Source of the DNA: Pseudomonadaceae bacterium
GTDB taxonomy: Bacteria > Pseudomonadota > Gammaproteobacteria > Pseudomonadales > Azotimanducaceae
Length of the DNA stretch: 64,000 bases
Assembly: GCA_024743175.1 (NCBI GenBank)
Contig: JANSXA010000003.1
Location: 310,001-374,000 of the forward strand
Direction of reading: 5' to 3'
Shown here: one piece after another, positions 46,211 to 59,219 of the stretch
How positions within the stretch are numbered: the first letter of the stretch is position 1
How the letters are laid out: each line of letters begins with the position of its first letter
Program-made: the position numbers and the translations under genes
The notes under the pieces: model-generated
Database searches by the model: none
What the model was told of the DNA's origin: nothing
What the model saw: only the letters and a program-made list of their open reading frames with translations

Positions 46211-46432
46211 CTAATTGTGGTGCGTGGGCGTATCACTTTTATCCTGCGTTTTCTCCAGCCCTTTCTCCAGCGCTGGGCAGCCTTCACGTTTGAGTTCCGC
46301 AGCGATGCTGCGAAGCTCACCCAGGTCTCTGGGTTTGAAGGCATCTTTTTGCGCGGCTAATTCCACCAGATCACTGCCGACGGTGTCATTGACGTGCGCC
46401 AGATATCCTTTTAAAAGCTTGCGATAACCCAT
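46211..46432 (-). CDS. Small hypothetical protein
   Basis: The protein has 73 residues, largely helical by composition, with many charged residues (ELRSIAAELKREGC) and no signal peptide or membrane segment. The start MGYRKLLKGYLAHV looks natural, and the reading frame shows amino-acid use expected of a real protein, but I do not recognise the family. It is followed by the VOC gene on the same strand. A Pho-box-like site lies about 54-71 bases upstream in the matching orientation, so it could be under PhoB control. Confidence 0.6.
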   Translation of the reverse strand: MGYRKLLKGYLAHVNDTVGSDLVELAAQKDAFKPRDLGELRSIAAELKREGCPALEKGLEKTQDKSDTPTHHN

Positions 46433-46485
46433 GGTTTATACGTGATGATTTCCTGCCCATCCTGCTATCACGCTAATCCTTCCTG

Positions 46486-46503
46486 TTGACAGTTTTATGA
46501 CGG
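46486..46503 (-). promoter_or_regulatory. Pho-box-like site, leftward orientation
   Basis: Read on the leftward strand it is CCGTCATAAAACTGTCAA, matching 16 of 18 positions of the Pho box (CTGTCAT-A[AT]A[AT]-CTGTCA[CT]). It points toward the 46432 gene. A weak -10-like TAGCGT lies ten bases downstream of it. Confidence 0.5.
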
Positions 46504-46530
46504 CTTTGTCGCGTCAAACGCGTTATGCGC

Positions 46531-46548
46531 ATGTCATAAATCTGTAAC
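46531..46548 (+). promoter_or_regulatory. Pho-box-like site, rightward orientation
   Basis: The site reads ATGTCATAAATCTGTAAC: two 7-base direct repeats with the four-base AAAT between them, close to the PhoB-binding consensus with mismatches mainly at the first position and within the second repeat. It lies about 107 bases before the lipoprotein start at 46655. A possible -10 (TATCTT, 46581-46586) is farther downstream than in classic PhoB promoters. Confidence 0.55.
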
Positions 46549-46654
46549 GAAAACGAAATGTTCGGGTCACAAAGCGGAACTATCTTGCCCGCTGGACACT
46601 GGGGTTGACCTTGGTGAATCAGTTGCAAAGAAATAAAACTCTCTGGGGGAGTTC

Positions 46655-49600
46655 ATGAAATCCAATAGTTTGTTACGGACACTGCGCCAGGCAGTGCTCC
46701 TTGGTTTAGGATCGCTCGTTCTGGCGGCTTGTGGAGGCGGCTCTGATAACGCTTCACCCGGCTCTGTGGTAGTTGAAGTACCGGTCACCGGCGGCACCGG
46801 AAGCGGCGGTACCGGCGGTGGCAGCACCGGCGGTGGCGGTACAGGTGGTGGTGGTCAATCCAATCCCAGTACCATCCCGGCTGCTTTGAATGCTGTGATT
46901 ACCGACAGCGGCACCACAGCCTCAACCTCGTTTGGCAATCTGCCGATTTTCACCATTGATGTGACCGCCCTGACGGGTGGCGCATTAGACCCTGCAGGGT
47001 TGGTTCTGGGTAACGATGCGATTTACCAGATTTCTGGTGGCGCATTGCGCATATCCCCACCCAGCGCCGGGGCTGCCTGTGCATTCAATCTTGAGCCCGG
47101 CGCCATCGTCGTGGGTGCAAGCGCAACAGACTTCCTTGTGATTGAGCAGGGTTGCCAGTTAGTTGCAGACGGCACCTCGGATCAGCCGATCATCTTTACC
47201 GCGCTGGAAGAAGTTACCGGCAACGTCGAAGCCTCTGACCGCGGTCTTTGGGGCGGTGTTGTGATTAATGGCTTTGCACCGATAAACGACTGTCCTGCTG
47301 GAGAAACCGGCGGTACAGCAGGTTGCACAAAAGAAGGCGAAGCCAACTCCGGTTTGTTTGGCGGCGATGATCCAAATGACAATTCAGGCATCCTGCGCTA
47401 CGTCAGCGTCCGCTACGCGGGTTCAAACGTTGATCCCCAGAACCAGCTCAATGGTATTGCTTTCCAGGCCGTGGGCGATGCAACTGTTGTTGAATATGTG
47501 CAGGTCCATAACAACCTGGACGACGGCATTGAATTTTTCGGTGGCACCGTCAATGCAAAATACATTGTTCTAACGGGTAACGATGATGACAGCCTGGACT
47601 GGACCGACGGCTGGGTGGGTAACCTTCAGTATTTGTATATCGAACAGACCGACGGTGGCGACAACGCGATTGAAGCGGATAACCGCAGCGACGAAGAAGA
47701 TGTACTGCCACGCTCCAACCCGACCATCGCGAACATGACCGTTATCGGCAAGTCTGATGAACGCGCTCTGCGTTTTCGTGCGGGTACAGCGGTTACCTTG
47801 TATAACAGCTTTGTCGACGGCTCTGAGCGCTGCATCCGAGTTGACGGCACTTCACGTGATTTCCTCGGCGCGGCAAGCGACCCGGCTATCACCATTGCTG
47901 GTGTCAGCTTCGCCTGTGCACAAACTAACGATGGAGACACGGGCGGTGCAGTTGCTGCTTATCTGAGCGGCGCGACCAACGTATCGCAGACAGGTGAGCA
48001 GGTTGATCCGATCAACATCGCTGATACTTTCTTCGAAAACACCGATTATCTCGGCGCTTTCGGCTCTGAAAACTGGGCGGACGGCTGGACACTGGAAGGT
48101 TCGGTCAGTCAAACCACGCAGCCTGACTTTGGTTGTCCGGATGGCACAACCACCTCATCGCGCACCATCGACGGTCAGCGCATCTGTCAGCTGAGTGGTG
48201 ATATCACCAGCGACCTGCTATTGACCTCCAACAACCTGTACGAGTTGGTGGGTAAGGTTACGATTGGGGGTGATAACACGGATTCTGCGGATCTGAGCAT
48301 TCAAGCGGGTACAACCATTTTTGGTGGCACCGATGTTGACTTCCTTGTGATCTCTCGCGGTTCCCGCATCCTGGCCAATGGCACACGGACAGCGCCAATT
48401 ACTTTCACCAGCCAGTCGGATGTTGAAGGCACGGTGCTTGCAACCGACCGAGGACTCTGGGGTGGTGTGGTAATCAATGGTAATGCACCGATAAACGACT
48501 GTCCTGCGGGTGAAACCGGCGGCACAGCAGGGTGTACTAAAGAAGGTGAAGCCAACTCTGGACTGTTTGGCGGCGATGTTGCTGATGATGACAGCGGCCG
48601 TCTGAACTATGTTGTTGTGAAATACGCAGGGTCTAACGTTGACCCGCAGAATCAGCTGAACGGTATTGCTTTCCAGGGTGTGGGCAGCACAACCGAAGTC
48701 GATTTTGTACAGGTGCACAACAACCTGGATGATGGCATTGAGTTTTTCGGCGGCACTGTGAGCGCGCGTCACGTCATCTTGACGGGCAACGCGGACGACT
48801 CACTCGATTGGACTGATGGCTGGGTCGGTAAAATTCAATACCTGATCATCAACCAGACCGACGCCGGTGACAGTGGCATTGAAGCGGACAATCGCTCAGA
48901 TGATCCGGGCGTTACACCAACGTCGCTACCTAAGATTGCAAACATGTCGATCAACGGAAATGCAGCATCGCGTGCAATTCGCGTACGTGCAGGTTCCGGC
49001 CTGGAGCTCTACAACAGCACGGTGCAGGGTAACGATCGCTGCTTTGTGGTTGAAAGTGCTGAGTCGCTGGCCTTGTTAGGTACAGGTATCCAACTGGGCG
49101 GCGTGAGCCTCGACTGTGTTGATCCACTAGACGCGGCAGTACAGGCTGAAATTGACGCCAGTGAAAACGTCAGCACCGACGGGACCCTGGTCAGTGCCGT
49201 GGATCTGTCAGCGGATGACTTCTTCGATAACACCACGTTTGTGGGTGCAATCGAGAACGTTGATGAAGACTGGACCACGGGCTGGGCCTTCGGTATGCCG
49301 GATGCAAGCGGTGTCTTTGGGTGTCCTGTGGGCACCACTGAAATTGCAGCCATAGATGGCACAACGACAACGTGCAGCCTGGCTGGCACCTACACTACAG
49401 ACCTTGTGTTACCTCGTAACAACATCTATGTGCTCGACGGTGCGGTCACCATTGGTGGCGACAACACGGATTCTGCAATTTTGGATATCCAATCGGGTAC
49501 AGAGATTGTTGGTGATGACCCGGTAGACTTCCTGGTGATTTCTCGTGGGTCTCAGATTCTGGCTCGGGGTACGCAGAACGCGCCGATCACGTTTACCGCA

Positions 49601-50512
49601 GCTGATGACATCCTGGGCAACATTGCCAACCCAACAACAACTCAAGGGTTGTGGGGCGGTCTGGTGATCAACGGGAACGCGCCCATTAATGATTGCCCGG
49701 CTGGCATCGATGGTGGCACGGCTGGTTGTACCAAGGAAGGTGAAGCCAATTCCGGCACCTTTGGTGGAGATGATCCGTTAGATAACAGCGGTGTACTCAA
49801 CTACGTGGTTGTGAAGTTTGCGGGTTCAAACGTAGATCCACAGAACCAGTTGAACGGTATTGCATTCCAGGGCGTGGGGTCTGGCACTGAAGTCGACTAC
49901 ATTCAGGTGTTTAACAACCTTGATGATGGTGTCGAATTCTTCGGCGGCACCGTTAACGCTTCACACGTGGTACTGATAGGTAACGCGGATGACAGCCTGG
50001 ACTGGACCGATGGCTGGGTAGGCTCGCTGCAGTATCTGCACATTGAACAAACCGCAGGCGGTGATAACAGCATTGAAGCGGACAATCGCAGCGATGACGA
50101 ACTGGCAACGCCGATATCTGAACCAACAATTGCTAATATGACCATTGTCGGTGACTCAGCCCAACGAGCGATTCGCTTACGCGTTGGCACCGGATTGCGT
50201 TTGTACAACTCAGAAGTATCCGGTAGCGACCGCTGTCTGGAAGTGTCAGGTGTTGCATCGCTGAGTTATCTCGGCAGTCGCATCACCTTTGATGCTGTCG
50301 GGCTTGGTTGCAACACCATTGTTGATGGCGGCGATGCAGATGTGCAAGCCTTCCTGGATGGTTCTACCAACGTCACTCAGGATGGCTCAACGCCTACGCC
50401 GGTTACTTTGCCAGCAGGATTAGACCCGGCAGGCGACAGCATCATCGGTTCTGATATCAGTGATTGGGGTCAAGGCTGGACGGTTGGTGTACCAGCACTG
50501 AGCGGTAACTAG
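46655..50512 (+). CDS. Large surface lipoprotein with three tandem beta-helix-like modules
   Basis: The protein has 1285 residues. Signal peptide with lipobox VLAAC (Cys26), a Gly/Thr/Ser-rich linker (about 44-70), then three modules of about 400 residues. Each carries DFLVI, RGLWGGVVING or a close variant, INDCPAG, GCTKEGEANSG, AGSNVDPQNQLNGIAFQ, NNLDDG(I/V)EFFGGTV and DDSLDWTDGWVG. Such repeats form right-handed beta-helix-like folds in secreted or surface proteins whose typical form has one module. The Asp-rich loops suggest Ca2+ binding. GGGGGAG precedes the ATG. A TBDR follows after a hairpin and a Pho-box-like site precedes, so a surface capture protein working with that receptor is the best guess. 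Confidence 0.85.
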   Translation: MKSNSLLRTLRQAVLLGLGSLVLAACGGGSDNASPGSVVVEVPVTGGTGSGGTGGGSTGGGGTGGGGQSNPSTIPAALNAVITDSGTTASTSFGNLPIFTIDVTALTGGALDPAGLVLGNDAIYQISGGALRISPPSAGAACAFNLEPGAIVVGASATDFLVIEQGCQLVADGTSDQPIIFTALEEVTGNVEASDRGLWGGVVINGFAPINDCPAGETGGTAGCTKEGEANSGLFGGDDPNDNSGILRYVSVRYAGSNVDPQNQLNGIAFQAVGDATVVEYVQVHNNLDDGIEFFGGTVNAKYIVLTGNDDDSLDWTDGWVGNLQYLYIEQTDGGDNAIEADNRSDEEDVLPRSNPTIANMTVIGKSDERALRFRAGTAVTLYNSFVDGSERCIRVDGTSRDFLGAASDPAITIAGVSFACAQTNDGDTGGAVAAYLSGATNVSQTGEQVDPINIADTFFENTDYLGAFGSENWADGWTLEGSVSQTTQPDFGCPDGTTTSSRTIDGQRICQLSGDITSDLLLTSNNLYELVGKVTIGGDNTDSADLSIQAGTTIFGGTDVDFLVISRGSRILANGTRTAPITFTSQSDVEGTVLATDRGLWGGVVINGNAPINDCPAGETGGTAGCTKEGEANSGLFGGDVADDDSGRLNYVVVKYAGSNVDPQNQLNGIAFQGVGSTTEVDFVQVHNNLDDGIEFFGGTVSARHVILTGNADDSLDWTDGWVGKIQYLIINQTDAGDSGIEADNRSDDPGVTPTSLPKIANMSINGNAASRAIRVRAGSGLELYNSTVQGNDRCFVVESAESLALLGTGIQLGGVSLDCVDPLDAAVQAEIDASENVSTDGTLVSAVDLSADDFFDNTTFVGAIENVDEDWTTGWAFGMPDASGVFGCPVGTTEIAAIDGTTTTCSLAGTYTTDLVLPRNNIYVLDGAVTIGGDNTDSAILDIQSGTEIVGDDPVDFLVISRGSQILARGTQNAPITFTAADDILGNIANPTTTQGLWGGLVINGNAPINDCPAGIDGGTAGCTKEGEANSGTFGGDDPLDNSGVLNYVVVKFAGSNVDPQNQLNGIAFQGVGSGTEVDYIQVFNNLDDGVEFFGGTVNASHVVLIGNADDSLDWTDGWVGSLQYLHIEQTAGGDNSIEADNRSDDELATPISEPTIANMTIVGDSAQRAIRLRVGTGLRLYNSEVSGSDRCLEVSGVASLSYLGSRITFDAVGLGCNTIVDGGDADVQAFLDGSTNVTQDGSTPTPVTLPAGLDPAGDSIIGSDISDWGQGWTVGVPALSGN
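46900..50509 (+). repeat. Three tandem ~1.2-kb intragenic repeats
   Basis: The shared motif (L)WGG(V/L)VING occurs near 47247, 48456 and 49651, giving periods of about 1209 and 1195 bases. Approximate units are 46900-48110, 48111-49310 and 49311-50509. Unit 1 differs at its N-terminal strand; units 2 and 3 share FGCP-GTT and VTIGGDNTDSA openings that unit 1 lacks. The DNA copies have diverged at synonymous sites, so the duplications are not recent. Confidence 0.88.
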
Positions 50513-50528
50513 GCCCGAGCAGATCACG

Positions 50529-50554
50529 GCGCCAGGTAGTTTTCTACCTGGCGC
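50529..50554 (+). terminator. Hairpin between lipoprotein and TBDR genes
   Basis: An 11-base perfect stem (GCGCCAGGTAG with CTACCTGGCGC) with a TTTT loop lies 17 bases after the lipoprotein stop and is followed by TTTGCTGCTT. It is a partial or weak terminator, or an mRNA-stabilising hairpin, and would lower receptor levels relative to the lipoprotein. Confidence 0.65.
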
Positions 50555-50589
50555 TTTGCTGCTTCTAACACCAAATATTAGGTGAGAAA

Positions 50590-53217
50590 ATGATTCGAAA
50601 AATGATTTGGGCCACTGCAGGTTTTTTTGCGATGGCTAACTCCGCAGGAGCGGAAGAATCCACAGGCATTGCGCCACCCGGAGTCATGGAAGAAGTGATT
50701 GTCCTGGGTAAATTTATTCCGGATGAGAAGCGTACTACCTCGGAAATCTCCAACGTGCTGGACGAAGAAGCCCTCGGTCTGCTTGCAGACTCCAGTGTTG
50801 GTGATGCGCTGGCGAGAGTGACCGGCTTGTCGCTGGTCGGTGGTAAGTATGTCTACGTCCGCGGCCTGGGTGAACGTTACTCGTCTACTTTGTTAGATGG
50901 ATCACGCATTTCATCTCCGGTGCCCTTTCAGAAAACCGTGCCTTTAGACATCGTACCGAAAAGTATCGTCCGCAATCTGCTGGTGCAGAAGACCTATTCA
51001 GCCCAGTATCCCGGCGACTTCAGTGGTGGTGTTGTTGACATACGCACCCGCGCAACGCCAGAAGAGAATTTCTTCGACGTGTCTTTCACTCTGGGTGGCA
51101 ATTCTGAAACCACCGGTGGCGACGGTCTGAAATACTCGGGAGGGTCCGACGATAACTGGGGTTTCGACGATGGCACTCGACATATTCCGGAGAATATTGC
51201 GCTGCTCTCCAGTGAGAATTTTGAGGATATAGACTTTCCTGAGGATCGTGCTTTAGGTGCGAGTTTCTTCAACAATTGGGATATCCGCGAGTTTGAGATC
51301 AAACCTGATTTTGCTGGCGATGCTGAACTTGGTTATCGCTTTGATCTCGACAATGGCATGTCGATCGGCGTGTTGGCTGCGGGTAAGTACGATAATTCCT
51401 ATCGGCAGTACGATACCGAGTATGCGCGATACAATTTTACCGGTGCTGCGGTGAATCAGCTGAACGACTATGCGCGGGAGTCTACTCGTCAAACGGTAAC
51501 CATGAGTGGTTTTCTTAACGTTGGTTTTGAGCTCAACAATGACAATGCAATAACCATCACGCACGTGCTGCTGCGTCAGACAGATGATGAAATACAGCAG
51601 GACCGAGGGGTCTCCAGTGAGTTTGGATTCTCGTTTACGCCAGTAGAAAATATTCTCATGCAGTGGACAGAGAACGAAATCCGATCCACCTCAATCAAGG
51701 GTGAGCATTACTTCAACATCGGCGATACGGTAAACGGCGCCTTGATTAACTGGCGTTATGTTGACGGGTCTGGTCTGCGCGAATCACCGGATACACGCAC
51801 GTACACCTACTTCGAAGAAAACGGCGTGGAAAACGTATCTGATTCGTTCACACAGCTTGATGCAAAGAACATTTACATTGCGCCGGAGCGTCAATTCCAG
51901 AAGCTCAAAGATGAAATTGACGAGTATGGGTTTGACCTGGAACTACCCTTCCTCCTGGGTGACATTGATGTGGTCTTGAAGGCGGGTTATGCGGAATACG
52001 AACGTACGCGTACAACCGAAGATCGCTTGTTTCGTTTTGATGTGACCAATACAGCGCCTGACTTTGTGCGTCTGCAGACGCCGCGTCAGCTGTTCGGCCT
52101 GGACAACTGGGGTGCAGGCTATCTGGACGTAGATGACTTTTCCGGTCGCGCTGCAGATTCCAGTGACATTTTTCCGTTTGCAGAATCCAGCGAGGAAACC
52201 TCAGGCTATTACGTCGGTGTTGATGCGCAGGTAACGGATCGTATTCGCGTGCAGGCGGGTGTTCGCAAAGAAGACACAACCCTTAAGGCGGATGCTTTTG
52301 GCGGCAGCACCTTACCTGGTTCAGACAACCAGGTGTCAGAAGACTATGATGATACGCTGCCCTCTGGTTCGTTGACCTTCGAGTTTGTCAACGACATGCA
52401 GTTGCGTCTGGCTTACTCAGAAACAGTGAATCGTCCCAGCCTGCTTGAAATTACCGGCTCAACCATTCGTAACCCGGAAGATGCCCAGTTGTATCGAGGC
52501 AACGTGTTTCTGCAACCCGCCGAGCTGACAAACTATGACCTGCGGTGGGAGTGGTATTTTGGTGAAGCTGACAGCGTTTCGGTGGGTGTCTTTGCCAAAG
52601 AGTTTGATGAGCCCATTGAACTGGGTCGCATCGAGGCCGAAAACGAAATTTTCACCTGGTACAACGCTGAAGAGGCCGATCTTGAAGGCGTCGAACTTGA
52701 GTTCCGCAAGGATCTGTTCTTTGACCGCTGGTTTAACTGGGGGCCGGATTGGGATCTGTTCACGCTCTCCGCAAACGTCTCCTTTATTGACTCTGAAGTG
52801 ACACTCTTTGGTCCAGGGGAAACGGCAGCCAATGTACCGCTAACCGGTAATCGCGGACTTGATGAAGTGTTTGAAAACGAACGCCAACTCACCGGCCAGT
52901 CGGATCTACTCGGTAACCTGATCCTCAGCTATTCCAATTATGAAACAGGTATTGAAGGCTCTTTAGCCTACAACTATACCGGTGAGCGTATCGCCCTGGT
53001 GGGTGCTGTGAATGCCCCTGATGTTCTCGAAGAAGCCCGAGGAAAACTGGACTTTCTGCTTAAATATCAATTTGTTATGTGGCAAACGGATCTGGAGCTT
53101 GAGTTCAAGTTGCAGAACCTGCTGGATGAGGAAATTGAGTGGACTCAGGGTGGCCGGGTGTATGAGCGCTACCGCCCGGGGGTGAGTTACAGTCTGGGTG
53201 TGAAAATGAGCCTGTGA
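50590..53217 (+). CDS. TonB-dependent receptor paired with the beta-helix lipoprotein
   Basis: The protein has 875 residues. Signal peptide (end near NSAGAEES), TonB-box-like VMEEVIVLG, plug domain (DSSVGDALARVTGLSLVGGKYVYVRGLGERYSS, in pieces: LARVTGLSLVGG, VRGLGERYSS; YPGDFSGGVVDIRT) and a beta-barrel ending in SYSLGVKMSL. The plug with GLGERY-type strands is common in receptors of Alteromonas/Sphingomonas-like bacteria with unknown substrates. AGGTGAG precedes the ATG, 77 bases after the lipoprotein stop. The pairing with a surface lipoprotein and the Pho-box-like site upstream suggest uptake of a phosphorus-containing compound. Confidence 0.9.
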   Translation: MIRKMIWATAGFFAMANSAGAEESTGIAPPGVMEEVIVLGKFIPDEKRTTSEISNVLDEEALGLLADSSVGDALARVTGLSLVGGKYVYVRGLGERYSSTLLDGSRISSPVPFQKTVPLDIVPKSIVRNLLVQKTYSAQYPGDFSGGVVDIRTRATPEENFFDVSFTLGGNSETTGGDGLKYSGGSDDNWGFDDGTRHIPENIALLSSENFEDIDFPEDRALGASFFNNWDIREFEIKPDFAGDAELGYRFDLDNGMSIGVLAAGKYDNSYRQYDTEYARYNFTGAAVNQLNDYARESTRQTVTMSGFLNVGFELNNDNAITITHVLLRQTDDEIQQDRGVSSEFGFSFTPVENILMQWTENEIRSTSIKGEHYFNIGDTVNGALINWRYVDGSGLRESPDTRTYTYFEENGVENVSDSFTQLDAKNIYIAPERQFQKLKDEIDEYGFDLELPFLLGDIDVVLKAGYAEYERTRTTEDRLFRFDVTNTAPDFVRLQTPRQLFGLDNWGAGYLDVDDFSGRAADSSDIFPFAESSEETSGYYVGVDAQVTDRIRVQAGVRKEDTTLKADAFGGSTLPGSDNQVSEDYDDTLPSGSLTFEFVNDMQLRLAYSETVNRPSLLEITGSTIRNPEDAQLYRGNVFLQPAELTNYDLRWEWYFGEADSVSVGVFAKEFDEPIELGRIEAENEIFTWYNAEEADLEGVELEFRKDLFFDRWFNWGPDWDLFTLSANVSFIDSEVTLFGPGETAANVPLTGNRGLDEVFENERQLTGQSDLLGNLILSYSNYETGIEGSLAYNYTGERIALVGAVNAPDVLEEARGKLDFLLKYQFVMWQTDLELEFKLQNLLDEEIEWTQGGRVYERYRPGVSYSLGVKMSL

Positions 53218-53256
53218 ATTCATAATTCTGTCACATAGCGGCCACATAATGCCGCC

Positions 53257-53550
53257 ATGAAATCAGCAGTCATCATTTCAATTGCAGTGCTGGCCATCTC
53301 CGGATGCGCCAGCCAGGCACCCACATTCTCCTGGTACCACCCCCAGGGTGGAGAATATCTGTTCTCTTTTGATGCCGATGAATGTACTGAAACTGTAGCT
53401 CAGCAGGGTCAGCAGCTGGGTACTGATACCCAGGGTCCATTTTTCCAGTGTATGCACAGTCGCGGTTATTATCTGGTCGATGCCCAGGGCATTGTGCAGG
53501 CGCCTGAAGAAGTTGTTCTGGCGGAAGGACCGCAAGTCTCCCAGCAGTAG
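53257..53550 (+). CDS. Small lipoprotein of unknown function
   Basis: The protein has 97 residues with a signal peptide and lipobox AISGC (Cys17). The mature part contains WYHPQGGEYLF and two Cys (DECTETV, FQCMHSRGYYL) that could form a disulfide. I do not recognise the family. The pattern C-x-(n)-QCMxxRGY is seen in many small proteobacterial lipoproteins. It begins 40 bases after the receptor gene on the same strand and is probably co-transcribed with it. Confidence 0.75.
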   Translation: MKSAVIISIAVLAISGCASQAPTFSWYHPQGGEYLFSFDADECTETVAQQGQQLGTDTQGPFFQCMHSRGYYLVDAQGIVQAPEEVVLAEGPQVSQQ

Positions 53551-53569: not shown

Positions 53570-54103
53570 TTAAAAGTTCCTTGTGACCGCGCCGGTATTT
53601 GAGTTGTACTCAAATGACAGTGTCGGCGCATCCGTGAACGTATAACGGCAGGCCCCACCGCCCAGATAAGCCGGTTGCAGATCCGCATCACTGTTCAGCG
53701 CGATCACCGTACTCCCCTGTAACAGCGCATTTGATATCGATATGCAGTCGGCAACGTTGTTCAGCGACGGATTGGCTTCAATGCCGCCAAACCATTGTTG
53801 TGAAGGCCAGCCATTGGCGTTGAAATCAATCTGTCCGTCCAGACCGGCGCCAAACACGGGCAGGTTTTCAGCAGGCTGACCGCCTGCCTGCAGCTGCCAG
53901 ACTGAGTGAGCGAGTTGCACACTGGCCTGTAATGCTGCGGCGGTTGTCTCCGCCCTTGCCAGGTGCGCGTCGTCATCAATGCGGATAAACCGGGGTAACG
54001 CAACCGCCGCCAGTATCGCGATCAGCAGGATAACTACAACCAGCTCCACCAGGGTAAACCCGAGCGTCGAAAAACCGACCATTTCAGTACGTTTAGTCAC
54101 CAT
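53570..54103 (-). CDS. Type IV pilin-like (type II secretion/MSHA-type) prepilin
   Basis: The protein has 177 residues. The prepilin peptidase site is STLGFTLVELVVVILLIAILAAVALPRF (in pieces: LGFTLVELVVV, LLIAILAAVALPRF): cleavage after Gly leaves N-terminal Phe with Glu5, followed by a long hydrophobic helix. The globular part has two Cys (ADCISI, GACRYTF) near the C terminus, a typical disulfide loop. The leader is short and basic (MVTKRTEM). It stands alone, without assembly genes nearby, and could be a minor pilin or MSHA-like subunit. Confidence 0.85.
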   Translation of the reverse strand: MVTKRTEMVGFSTLGFTLVELVVVILLIAILAAVALPRFIRIDDDAHLARAETTAAALQASVQLAHSVWQLQAGGQPAENLPVFGAGLDGQIDFNANGWPSQQWFGGIEANPSLNNVADCISISNALLQGSTVIALNSDADLQPAYLGGGACRYTFTDAPTLSFEYNSNTGAVTRNF

Positions 54104-56768: not shown

Positions 56769-59036
56769 TCAGAAGGTAAACCTGACGCCAACAGAAGCTG
56801 TGGTGTCTTTGTTAGGACGTGCGCCGTATGGCTGACGACCGAGGATATCTTCTTCGCCTGTCAGGTTTTCCACCCGGGCAAACAGTTCTGTCGCCTCGTT
56901 GAGGTTGTAGCTGCCTGAAAGATCAACACTCAGCGTGCTGTCGGTCTGTTCAAAGGCGCCACAGGATGCGCGCACGCAAACTTCATCAACATAGTTCGCC
57001 GCGAGATAAACATCCCACTGATTGGCGACCAGGCCGATTGACACATTCAGCTGGTTCTCTGGAATATAAGGAATCGGGTCACCTTTACTGACGTCGCCAA
57101 AAAAGTCTGTACTGGCAATGTCAGAATCGAACTTGCTGTCAATGTAGGTGTAAGCAACTTCCAGCGGCATGGCGATTTGTCCGCGTGGATTCAGATTGGT
57201 GCCCAACAGCATTTCAAAACCCTGCACGGTGACTGCGTCACCGTTAAAAGCGTCGCCGATTTCGCAATTTGAGCCCGACGAGGCTGTACACTCACCCAAC
57301 AGATTATCGTAGTCGCTTAAGAAGTAGGCGGCTTCGATACGTAGATTACTGTCATTGAACCGCAGACCAAGTTCATAGTTGATGGCTTCTTCTTCATCAA
57401 CACCGGGTGCATTGCTGGGTGCGGTGAAGCCTTTGTGGATGCCAGCAAATACGCTGAGTTCATCGTTAAAGCTGTAGATAGCACCCATGCCCGGGAGCCA
57501 TACAGACGTGTCGTTCGAACGTCTGTCGCGCAGATTGGCAGCACTACGTGAGGCAGGATCCAGCGTGTTGCCAGGGCGGATCTCCCAGCGGGTGCGTTGC
57601 TGTTCTATGTCCTCAAAGCGCAAACCCGGTGTGAGTGTCCAGTTGCCAATTTCAATGCGGTCGTAGACGTGGATGGCCAGCGCCTGGGCTTCCTGTACCC
57701 GGTTGCCGGCGTTGCCTAACAAACCGATATCGTCGCGTACAAGCTGGCCGGAGATCTGACTGTAACTGCTGTTGCGCTGCAGACGGTCTTCTTCATCTTC
57801 GTGCATGCGCAACCCGACGTTGATTGAATGTGACCAGTCACCGGCCAGCACGCTCCAATCCAGGCCCAGCTGAATGCCTCGCGAAAAGTACTCGCGGTCG
57901 TTGGCTCGCAGTTGCAGGCTGCCTGGCGGCGTATCAATGTCGCCGTCCAGAATGCCCTGCAGCTGGTCGCTGGTCAGACCGCCAAGAGGCTCACCGCTGT
58001 TTATTGCCTGAACTACATCGAACCAGCTGGTGCGGGAGAAGCTTTCTGCATCCGTTGAGCCGTCAAAATCGATGCCTTCAGTTTTGAACCAGCTCCGCTC
58101 ATGCGTATTGTTGTAGGCCGTGGCGTTGAAGTTAAGTCGGTCACTGATATCCCACTCATAACGCAAAATAACCTGTTCGTGCTGAGTGGCTATGTTGTCC
58201 AAAGCAGATAAACCGTAGCGTCGGAAAGCATCTCTGTCGAAGTCGCCGTCGGTCAGGCCAAGGTACGTCTGGTCGGAATCCTGCTCCGCGTATTGCAGCT
58301 TCAACTCAACACGATGGTTAGAGGTGTCAGGTGCATAACTCAGCTTCAACGTATAGTCTTCTACGTCCAGGCCGGTATCTCCGCCCCGGTCGATTGTCTG
58401 AAATCCATCTGACTGCCATTGGTGGGTTTCAACAAGGTAGCCAAAGCCAGAGTCGGTGCGCGCGCCATAATGCGCGTGCAGGCGATAAGTTGAATCTTCT
58501 CCAGCTTCCAGAGTGACTTTGCCGCTGGCGACTTCGGGAATGGGAACGGAGATCATGTTAAGAGCACCGCCTATTGTATAAGGCCCCTGGGTGATGGCTG
58601 CAGGACCTTTCAGCACTTCAATAGCAGACATGCGACCGATGGTCGGGAAATAGTACGCGCTGGGCGCGGAATAGGGAGCGGGTGAAATCAGCACGTTATC
58701 TTCTAACAGAGTAATTCGGCCACTGCGTTCAGTGGCAACACCACGGATACTGATGTTGGGGCGTAAGCCGTAGCCGTCTTCAACCTGCACCGAAACGCCT
58801 GGAATCTGCCGAACGATGCGCTGGATGTCATTGTGGCCAAGCTGCTCAATCTGCTCTGCGCTCACATAGTGCGCGCTGCCGGCAACCTGTTCACCCAACT
58901 GGCGTTCGCCAACAATGGTTATTTCTTCTTCAAAAAAAGTAGCGCCTTCGTCGGCGTGGGTCGCGCTGACGATGCCAGTAACCCCGAAAATGAATGCGCA
59001 AACGACAGCGTGCGGCTTTGATATGACAGACTGCAT
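56769..59036 (-). CDS. TonB-dependent receptor, predicted Fur-regulated
   Basis: The protein has 755 residues. Signal peptide (end near VSATHADE), TonB-box-like EEEITIVGERQ, plug with IRGVATERSGRITLLEDNVL (in pieces: IRGVATERSGR, LLEDNVL) and APSAYYFPTIGRM, then a beta-barrel ending in TASVGVRFTF. The GYGLRPNISIRGV plug is typical of FecA/FhuA-like metal receptors. The start at 59036 is preferred to the longer frame at 59135 because it gives a normal signal peptide. A near-perfect Fur box lies 60-75 bases upstream, so uptake of a ferric chelate or related metal compound is likely. The PepSY-like gene follows. Confidence 0.9.
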   Translation of the reverse strand: MQSVISKPHAVVCAFIFGVTGIVSATHADEGATFFEEEITIVGERQLGEQVAGSAHYVSAEQIEQLGHNDIQRIVRQIPGVSVQVEDGYGLRPNISIRGVATERSGRITLLEDNVLISPAPYSAPSAYYFPTIGRMSAIEVLKGPAAITQGPYTIGGALNMISVPIPEVASGKVTLEAGEDSTYRLHAHYGARTDSGFGYLVETHQWQSDGFQTIDRGGDTGLDVEDYTLKLSYAPDTSNHRVELKLQYAEQDSDQTYLGLTDGDFDRDAFRRYGLSALDNIATQHEQVILRYEWDISDRLNFNATAYNNTHERSWFKTEGIDFDGSTDAESFSRTSWFDVVQAINSGEPLGGLTSDQLQGILDGDIDTPPGSLQLRANDREYFSRGIQLGLDWSVLAGDWSHSINVGLRMHEDEEDRLQRNSSYSQISGQLVRDDIGLLGNAGNRVQEAQALAIHVYDRIEIGNWTLTPGLRFEDIEQQRTRWEIRPGNTLDPASRSAANLRDRRSNDTSVWLPGMGAIYSFNDELSVFAGIHKGFTAPSNAPGVDEEEAINYELGLRFNDSNLRIEAAYFLSDYDNLLGECTASSGSNCEIGDAFNGDAVTVQGFEMLLGTNLNPRGQIAMPLEVAYTYIDSKFDSDIASTDFFGDVSKGDPIPYIPENQLNVSIGLVANQWDVYLAANYVDEVCVRASCGAFEQTDSTLSVDLSGSYNLNEATELFARVENLTGEEDILGRQPYGARPNKDTTASVGVRFTF

Positions 59037-59095
59037 TTTTAATCCCACTGCAAAATAGCGGCTTGGCCGCGACAGAGAGGGCAATATGTCCCAAA

Positions 59096-59110
59096 TGAGA
59101 ATGATTATCA
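59096..59110 (-). promoter_or_regulatory. Fur box
   Basis: TGAGAAT-G-ATTATCA on the rightward strand, the 7-1-7 Fur inverted repeat (TGATAATnATTATCA), with one mismatch. It lies 60 to 74 bases before the TBDR start at 59036. A weaker related stretch (TGAGAGTTATTTGCA) follows near 59120-59134. Confidence 0.75.
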
Positions 59111-59219
59111 ATACTAAAATGAGAGTTATTTGCAAATAGGGTCAGGTCGACATCAGGGGCATATCCACTTACCTTTAAAGAAGGCGTCAAATGAGTAACG
59201 CGCATCCAAGGGGAGTCAA

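Follow-up and report, generated by a model that had tools for sequence, protein, structure and literature searches.

Bacteria of two phyla produce lipoproteins of the type described here when starved of phosphate (PMC2996285, PMC8115612), ElpS of Caulobacter crescentus being one such protein. A related locus is found in the window, a stretch of 64,000 nucleotides of DNA from a Pseudomonadaceae bacterium (contig JANSXA010000003.1, positions 310,001 to 374,000), where the genes for a large three-module lipoprotein, a TonB-dependent receptor (TBDR) and a small lipoprotein are associated with putative promoters of the PhoB type. Judged by sequence and gene order, the lipoprotein-TBDR pair is a three-module variant of an already-known kind, represented by ElpS and by the PUS clusters of Flavobacterium johnsoniae. 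The locus is very likely under phosphate (PhoB) control and likely has a surface role in phosphorus acquisition. Many of the bacteria that carry such units are marine.

Relation to ElpS and other described systems

ElpS (CC_0170) is a surface-anchored protein made under phosphate starvation, and its gene is followed by cc0171, which encodes a TBDR, and then by genes of the type II secretion system (T2SS), an order also found in Hyphomonas neptunium (PMC2996285). Overproduction of ElpS raises phosphatase activity in the supernatant, with ElpS itself showing none (PMC2996285). PhoB controls several TBDRs in Caulobacter (PMC11208175). Apart from the Caulobacter paper, literature searches on the combination of Pho boxes and TBDRs, in marine bacteria or next to pst, yielded nothing relevant. 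The cluster in the window is composed as follows:

46211-46432, minus strand: divergent small-protein gene (73 aa; MGYR-LLK-Y family)
46655-50512, plus strand: lipoprotein gene (1285 aa; LAAC-G lipobox, Cys26)
46985-48118, plus strand: lipoprotein module 1 (residues 111-488)
48203-49306, plus strand: lipoprotein module 2 (residues 517-884)
49391-50509, plus strand: lipoprotein module 3 (residues 913-1285)
50590-53217, plus strand: TBDR gene (875 aa)
53257-53550, plus strand: small lipoprotein gene (97 aa; lipobox judged by eye)

A preliminary description of this DNA had listed a lipoprotein, a TBDR and a small lipoprotein on one strand with short gaps, and the open reading frames (ORFs) are indeed as it gave them, with 77 bp between the lipoprotein and TBDR genes and 39 bp between the TBDR and small lipoprotein genes, all three on the plus strand. 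As in the case of ElpS and CC_0171, a lipoprotein gene is followed by a TBDR gene, with both the lipobox and the TBDR partner present in the window. The window protein has three modules and a mature mass of 128.7 kDa, compared with about 50 kDa for ElpS. Unlike the ElpS locus, the pair in the window is not followed by gspC and gspD, neither of which was found among the window neighbours examined; the small lipoprotein gene comes next, followed by a pilin-like gene on the opposite strand, and the locus has two genes not described for that of ElpS, the apparently co-regulated small lipoprotein and divergent genes. The ElpS position is shared by two-module relatives of the window protein, with gspD adjoining the pair in Hyphomonas johnsonii, Maricaulis salignorans, Eilatimonas milleporae and an uncultured Kordiimonas. 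Relatives are 38-48% identical to the window protein in the best segment, and the Hyphomonas johnsonii protein in the elpS position shows 45% identity over 698 aligned positions. The window lipoprotein would be of the ElpS type, an assignment based on gene position and on these relatives.

A second comparison is provided by F. johnsoniae, where Fjoh_3856/3857 are strongly induced by phosphate depletion and the FI-FIII lipoproteins, modelled as polygalacturonase-like, are 31-36% identical to the Caulobacter lipoprotein with a coverage of 50-54% (PMC8115612). The PUSIII and PUSIV clusters resemble the window locus in that they encode a lipoprotein (FI/FII/FIII) induced when phosphate is depleted, joined in PUSIII by the TonB-dependent transporter Fjoh_3857 (PMC8115612). 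They differ in belonging to another phylum and in having genes for a sigma factor, a FecR-like protein and proteins of the type IX secretion system kind in the cluster (PMC8115612), and the putative link of the window protein to FI-FIII runs through ElpS. SusCD systems likewise encode a lipoprotein and a TonB-dependent receptor together. In contrast to these, the large lipoprotein of the window has no SusD-family match at E <= 1 in Pfam and NCBIfam scans, and the receptor has no SusC-family match in the NCBIfam scan.

The identification of the receptor as a TBDR is confirmed by Pfam, which finds both the plug (PF07715, E 3.6e-9) and the barrel (PF00593, E 2.5e-28). The nearest NCBIfam model is TIGR01782, yet the match is below its cut-off, and haem/haemoglobin receptors are among the weaker matches. 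The sequence EEVIVLG near the N-terminus is presumably a TonB-box-like motif, as judged by eye. The large lipoprotein is very acidic, with 121 Asp and 48 Glu, and its mature form has an isoelectric point (pI) of 4.05. Its modules had been called three beta-helix-like modules; there are indeed three, with 55-64% identity between them, whilst a right-handed beta-helix fold is weakly supported. Pfam Beta_helix matches at E <= 0.1 were weak and obtained for 12 of 74 module homologues (best E 0.0052), window module 2 scored 16 bits against a cut-off of 25.9, and a sequence search of solved structures gave no convincing relative of the lipoprotein in the PDB.

Pho-type promoters and their conservation

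The preliminary description had placed a Pho-box-like site, ATGTCATAAATCTGTAAC, at 46531-46548. The site is present, with 3 of its 14 specified bases differing from the consensus CTGTCATnnnnCTGTCAT, and belongs to a putative promoter with four half-sites, which is one of three in the cluster:

46470-46503, minus strand: putative divergent PhoB-type promoter (CCGTCATAAAACTGTCAA, 10 bp, TAGCGT), facing the 73-aa ORF
46531-46586, plus strand: putative PhoB-type promoter of the lipoprotein-TBDR unit (11-bp grid, four half-sites)
53217-53250, plus strand: putative PhoB-type promoter of the small lipoprotein (AATTCATAATTCTGTCAC, 10 bp, CATAAT)

In PhoB promoters the spacing between the last half-site and the -10 hexamer is constant. 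In the main promoter the half-sites ATGTCAT (46531-46537) and CTGTAAC (46542-46548) are followed by a poor one, ACGAAAT (46553-46559), and a fair one, GGGTCAC (46564-46570), and the hexamer TATCTT (46581-46586) comes 10 bp after the fourth. The box of the divergent promoter (46486-46503, minus strand) has 2 mismatches to the consensus. That of the small lipoprotein (53217-53234) overlaps the end of the TBDR stop codon by one base, and the start codon or messenger RNA leader of this gene is uncertain because the -10 hexamer lies only 6 bp before the ATG. The small lipoprotein had been described as part of the unit; it carries a Pho-type promoter of its own and is not simply a third cistron.

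All three promoters have counterparts in two relatives of the genus, G152 and G167 (G000 is the genome of the window itself, other G numbers are related genomes and L numbers are loci). The divergent and small-lipoprotein promoters of these relatives keep the same 10-bp spacing, and the regions ahead of their lipoprotein genes seem by eye to consist of four half-sites with TAAGGT or TAGAGT 10 bp further on. The genome of the window encodes PhoB (TIGR02154 above cut-off, G000:C15:184102-184776), and its own phoX-family gene has the same promoter geometry upstream as the lipoprotein unit.

The matrix for scoring upstream regions combines 19 half-sites, found at 7 of 14 phoB loci and at the phoX-family gene of the window genome; lipoprotein genes contributed none. 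The phoB and phoX sites were used because pstS loci gave no boxes, the sequence ahead of 6 of the 7 looking by eye like the final part of a PhoR-like kinase gene. Matrix and consensus are not independent, since the half-sites were picked with that consensus. Within the family set of 21 loci, two had no usable start (L018, L021) and 19 were scored, including the window, whose main promoter has a two-half-site score above all 125 control upstreams. In all, this holds for 15 of the 19, the window included. Several of the 19 are close relatives (L004/L017; the g33 group) and so not independent of one another. As a lipoprotein fragment (L083) and sequences ahead of receptor genes within the locus remained among the controls, the test is conservative.

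A wider set comprised 115 loci, of which 14 were dropped for a missing start, lipobox or upstream sequence, leaving 101. Its named contigs are the best 77 loci of 298 relatives, some from genomes also in the family set, and the best matches among them come from Pseudomonadales, Gammaproteobacteria and Halieaceae. Seongchinamella and Pseudohalioglobus strains have relatives that align with almost all of the protein, although in some cases the gene appears split in the sequence record. Scores above the 95th percentile of 256 named-contig controls were obtained for 74 of the 101 homologues, and above the 99th for 29. The 99th percentile of these controls is 15.3; an earlier set that touched lipoprotein promoters gave 16.8 and was replaced. 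Some strong sites remain in the present one, located ahead of one gspD, one porin and one phoB gene. Recurrence of Pho boxes upstream of orthologous pairs, a check proposed beforehand, is thus found for most loci and not for all.

The -10 hexamer, which is not part of the Pho-box score, provides a further observation. Among 76 promoters that score about 10 or more and are distinct in the first 45 bases, 40 have a TAnnnT hexamer at 10, 21 or 32 bp after the best 18-mer, compared with 0-5 in each of the other registers from -9 to +9.

Counting of matches is less informative. At <=3 mismatches the whole window has 2 matches against 6.4 expected from shuffles, and window-wide counting was dropped as evidence; both matches fall in the 222-bp gap 46433-46654, where by arithmetic about 0.02 would be expected. 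When 14 chosen genomes were scanned with a strict promoter pattern, 6 exact matches were obtained, and reversed controls gave 3. Three of the six are at cluster-type genes, namely the divergent gene of G152 and G167, whose window counterpart is one mismatch away, and a small-lipoprotein copy in G085. The sole exact match in the window genome (G000:C18:142067-142099, L311) has a Na/Pi cotransporter gene (PF02690) starting 83 bp after its first base, and the remaining two represent a single site, shared by G033 and G144, upstream of an unidentified ORF. The loose 18-mer is enriched in the window genome (389 versus 222). The argument for Pho control is carried by conservation and not by pattern counts.

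That the resemblance to a Pho box is due to chance, with the locus otherwise regulated, might be suggested by the 3 mismatches of the named site, the low window count and the absence of a box at the genome's own phoB, yet it is very improbable and was rejected in view of the 15 of 19 upstreams above all controls, the 74 of 101 above the 95th percentile, three conserved promoters in one cluster and the 40 of 76 in register.

Three family loci, L003, L011 and L019, are without a standard Pho box. In G034, a CTTTAAC repeat with an 11-bp period seems by eye to be common to the lipoprotein gene (L011) and pstS (L061); the use of CTTTAAC in place of CTGTCAT could perhaps reflect a shifted PhoB specificity.

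Gene order and proposed role

The pairing of lipoprotein and TBDR genes holds widely, as 110 of the 115 lipoprotein loci have, on the same strand, a TBDR match that starts no more than 2.5 kb downstream. Four of the five exceptions (L161, L162, L199, L213) end near the gene and one, L240, is unexplained. Relatives near pst, phoU or phoB fall into five kinds of gene order, phoB neighbours having been noted without a systematic search. The order is pstSCAB-phoU-lipoprotein-TBDR in G034 and pstSCAB-phoU-phoB-lipoprotein-TBDR in an uncultured alphaproteobacterium (L198), phoU-phoB being present in L197 also. In Kordiimonas L204, pstC-pstA-pstB-phoU lies about 2.4 kb upstream, followed by other small ORFs, the pair and gspC-gspD, with phoU confirmed in L190 and L214. 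In Haliea L155 pstC-pstA-pstB-phoU precedes a porin gene, which has an exactly spaced Pho box to itself, and after some small ORFs comes the pair. In Halieaceae L158, phoB lies just beyond the TBDR on the opposite strand. A search with the PstS and PhoU of G034 detected PhoU in 8 of 95 loci (7 records, L077 and L156 being the same contig) and PstS in 3 of 95; the other three-module loci had neither PstS nor PhoU within the flanks covered by that search. Nothing connected with phosphorus was detected when the neighbouring genes in L070, L152 and L153 were searched by family.

It is reasonable to suppose, with moderate confidence in the scheme as a whole, that PhoB activates capture by the lipoprotein and TBDR import of a phosphorus-rich ligand. 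Upon phosphate limitation PhoB would activate the three promoters in the cluster, the main one giving rise to the large acidic ElpS-type lipoprotein, with its three tandem modules, and its own TBDR. The lipoprotein would capture a phosphorus-rich ligand at the cell surface and hand it over to the receptor, which would take it through the outer membrane with energy supplied via TonB. Once in the periplasm, the phosphorus would pass, either directly or following hydrolysis, to a phosphate transporter (PstSCAB, for instance), with the small lipoprotein and the divergent small protein acting as co-regulated accessories. The cluster would thus probably be the outer-membrane part of phosphorus scavenging. 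Comparison of sequences establishes the promoter architecture and its conservation, the gene partnership, some pst/pho linkage and the family relation by sequence and gene order. From these we infer the surface location, the capture and hand-over, the energisation by TonB and the cargo. The phosphate control proposed earlier is strongly supported, on comparative grounds, by promoter geometry, recurrence, pst/phoU/phoB linkage in some relatives and the published induction of ElpS and FI-FIII. What began as a loose resemblance becomes a unit open to experiment through this linkage, the precise register of the promoter and the presence of two further small genes that are co-regulated.

A number of results have to be set against this scheme. 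The genome's own phoB and 6 more of the 14 phoB loci have no match at <=4 mismatches within 600 bp, none of the 7 pstS loci has a Pho box at <=3 mismatches, and a plausible site was seen at only 1 of 17 PhoX-family loci, so that the matrix rests on 7 phoB loci and one phoX. Four of the 19 family upstreams miss the top control, the fraction of controls reaching them being 0.016 for L013, 0.048 for L019, 0.15 for L011 and 0.24 for L003, and 27 of the 101 wider homologues, including most Kordiimonas-type ones, lie below the controls' 95th percentile. The strict pattern at one mismatch is not enriched in the window genome (23 matches versus 33 in the reversed control), which makes it weak evidence when taken alone. 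No phosphatase was seen among the cluster genes examined. In Caulobacter, deletion of elpS left phosphatase activity unchanged, cc0171 was not regulated like elpS, and its deletion did not stop production of ElpS (PMC2996285). Finally, no paper showing the cargo of such pairs, or its import, was found in the open-licence literature.

The absence of a box at the window genome's own phoB (L118) is an observation in its own right, as half of the phoB loci examined in the relatives and this genome have one.

With regard to the cargo, the phosphoester polymer or nucleotide given as examples in the preliminary description would be candidates, and the linkage to pst makes phosphate itself another. 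A tentative version of the scheme regards the pair as the outer-membrane half of a high-affinity phosphate transporter, a TonB-powered importer of phosphate, or of polyphosphate or a calcium-phosphate colloid, that would work in series with PstSCAB and replace passive porin entry. The colloid or polyphosphate would be caught by the strongly acidic modules, and the MGYR-LLK-Y protein would be an accessory, perhaps a regulator. This fits better than an organic ester because some relatives have pstSCAB-phoU(-phoB)-lipoprotein-TBDR without phosphatases.

Considerably less likely than capture and import is that the lipoprotein, instead of binding cargo for the receptor, serves at the surface or after release as a cofactor of an extracellular phosphatase, which it would activate or scaffold in the way suggested for ElpS, with the TBDR being a separate importer. 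The effect of ElpS overproduction on supernatant phosphatase activity, exerted by a protein inactive by itself, is in keeping with such a role (PMC2996285), as is the presence of GspC and GspD genes, detected by tblastn with two-module relatives in 27 and 29 of 95 loci, respectively. However, these secretion genes are confined to two-module alphaproteobacterial loci within L167-L216, no phosphatase is seen in the cluster, a TBDR lies downstream in 110 of 115 loci, and the deletion of elpS was without consequence for activity (PMC2996285). A GspC profile scan, made for Hyphomonas johnsonii only, gave a match below the model cut-off.

It is more doubtful still that the pair imports a nutrient other than phosphorus which the cell requires when phosphate is scarce, for instance the iron or calcium of PhoX-type phosphatases. 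Both metals are required by PhoX, PhoX-family genes were found in 11 of 13 genomes tested, the very acidic lipoprotein would suit metal binding, and the weaker NCBIfam matches of the TBDR include haem/haemoglobin receptors. Yet the linkage found involves pst, phoU and phoB, with no systematic search of the flanks for iron genes or phoX. Capture and import of a phosphorus-rich ligand is retained as the best explanation.

Accessory families and minor observations

The MGYR-LLK-Y family, to which the divergent small protein belongs, is present in 25 of 200 family genomes, its members being 72-164 aa long (24 translated). The gene is divergent to a lipoprotein homologue in 16 of the 25 cases, and a Pho-box score above 10 is found upstream of 19 of the 25 (L247-L271 and the window), including G018 and six g35 genomes without a lipoprotein match. 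In G029 and G074 it is preceded by the small lipoprotein gene and has no box of its own. One longer member gave sub-threshold helix-turn-helix matches, and none were found in six other members and the window copy. It is possibly an undescribed family of Pho-regulon proteins.

The small lipoprotein family is found in 42 of 200 genomes. A strong box was detected in only 2 of 7 copies outside the window arrangement (L086, L070). A second copy in the window genome lies behind a TTGTCAT-AGAA-CTGTCAT-ATTA-CTGTAAC triple box at G000:C15:204742-204770 (L034), about 300 bp on the 5' side of the gene, with CCTAAGG-like repeats in between.

The gap between the lipoprotein and TBDR genes contains a strong predicted hairpin:

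50529-50556 (approximate), plus strand: hairpin, 12 predicted pairs

A hairpin in this position is also predicted for L068 and L081, and, among 18 named loci folded, GCCAGGC/GCCTGGC hairpins are seen by eye in L150, L152, L158 and L160, with T runs in some. A terminator scan of the window did not list the 50529-50556 hairpin. It may act as a partial terminator, giving more lipoprotein than receptor.

Several features of the surroundings may also be mentioned. A Porin_5 porin lies beside the pst/lipoprotein cluster in two lineages (L155 4335-5597; L077 3309-4595), and in 1 of 95 loci (Catenovulum L200) DUF3450 and an ExbB/TolQ-like gene follow the pair. An alphaproteobacterial gspD (L208 13345-15285) has a strong Pho-box-like site upstream, CTGTCATATGATTGTCAC, as if the T2SS of this organism were under Pho control. 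In the window, the adjoining pilin-like gene (53570-54103, minus strand) encodes an N-terminal methylation motif and has a GspG match far below cut-off, and a reading of the sequence points to a second long TBDR-like ORF near the cluster on the opposite strand (56769-59135, minus strand).

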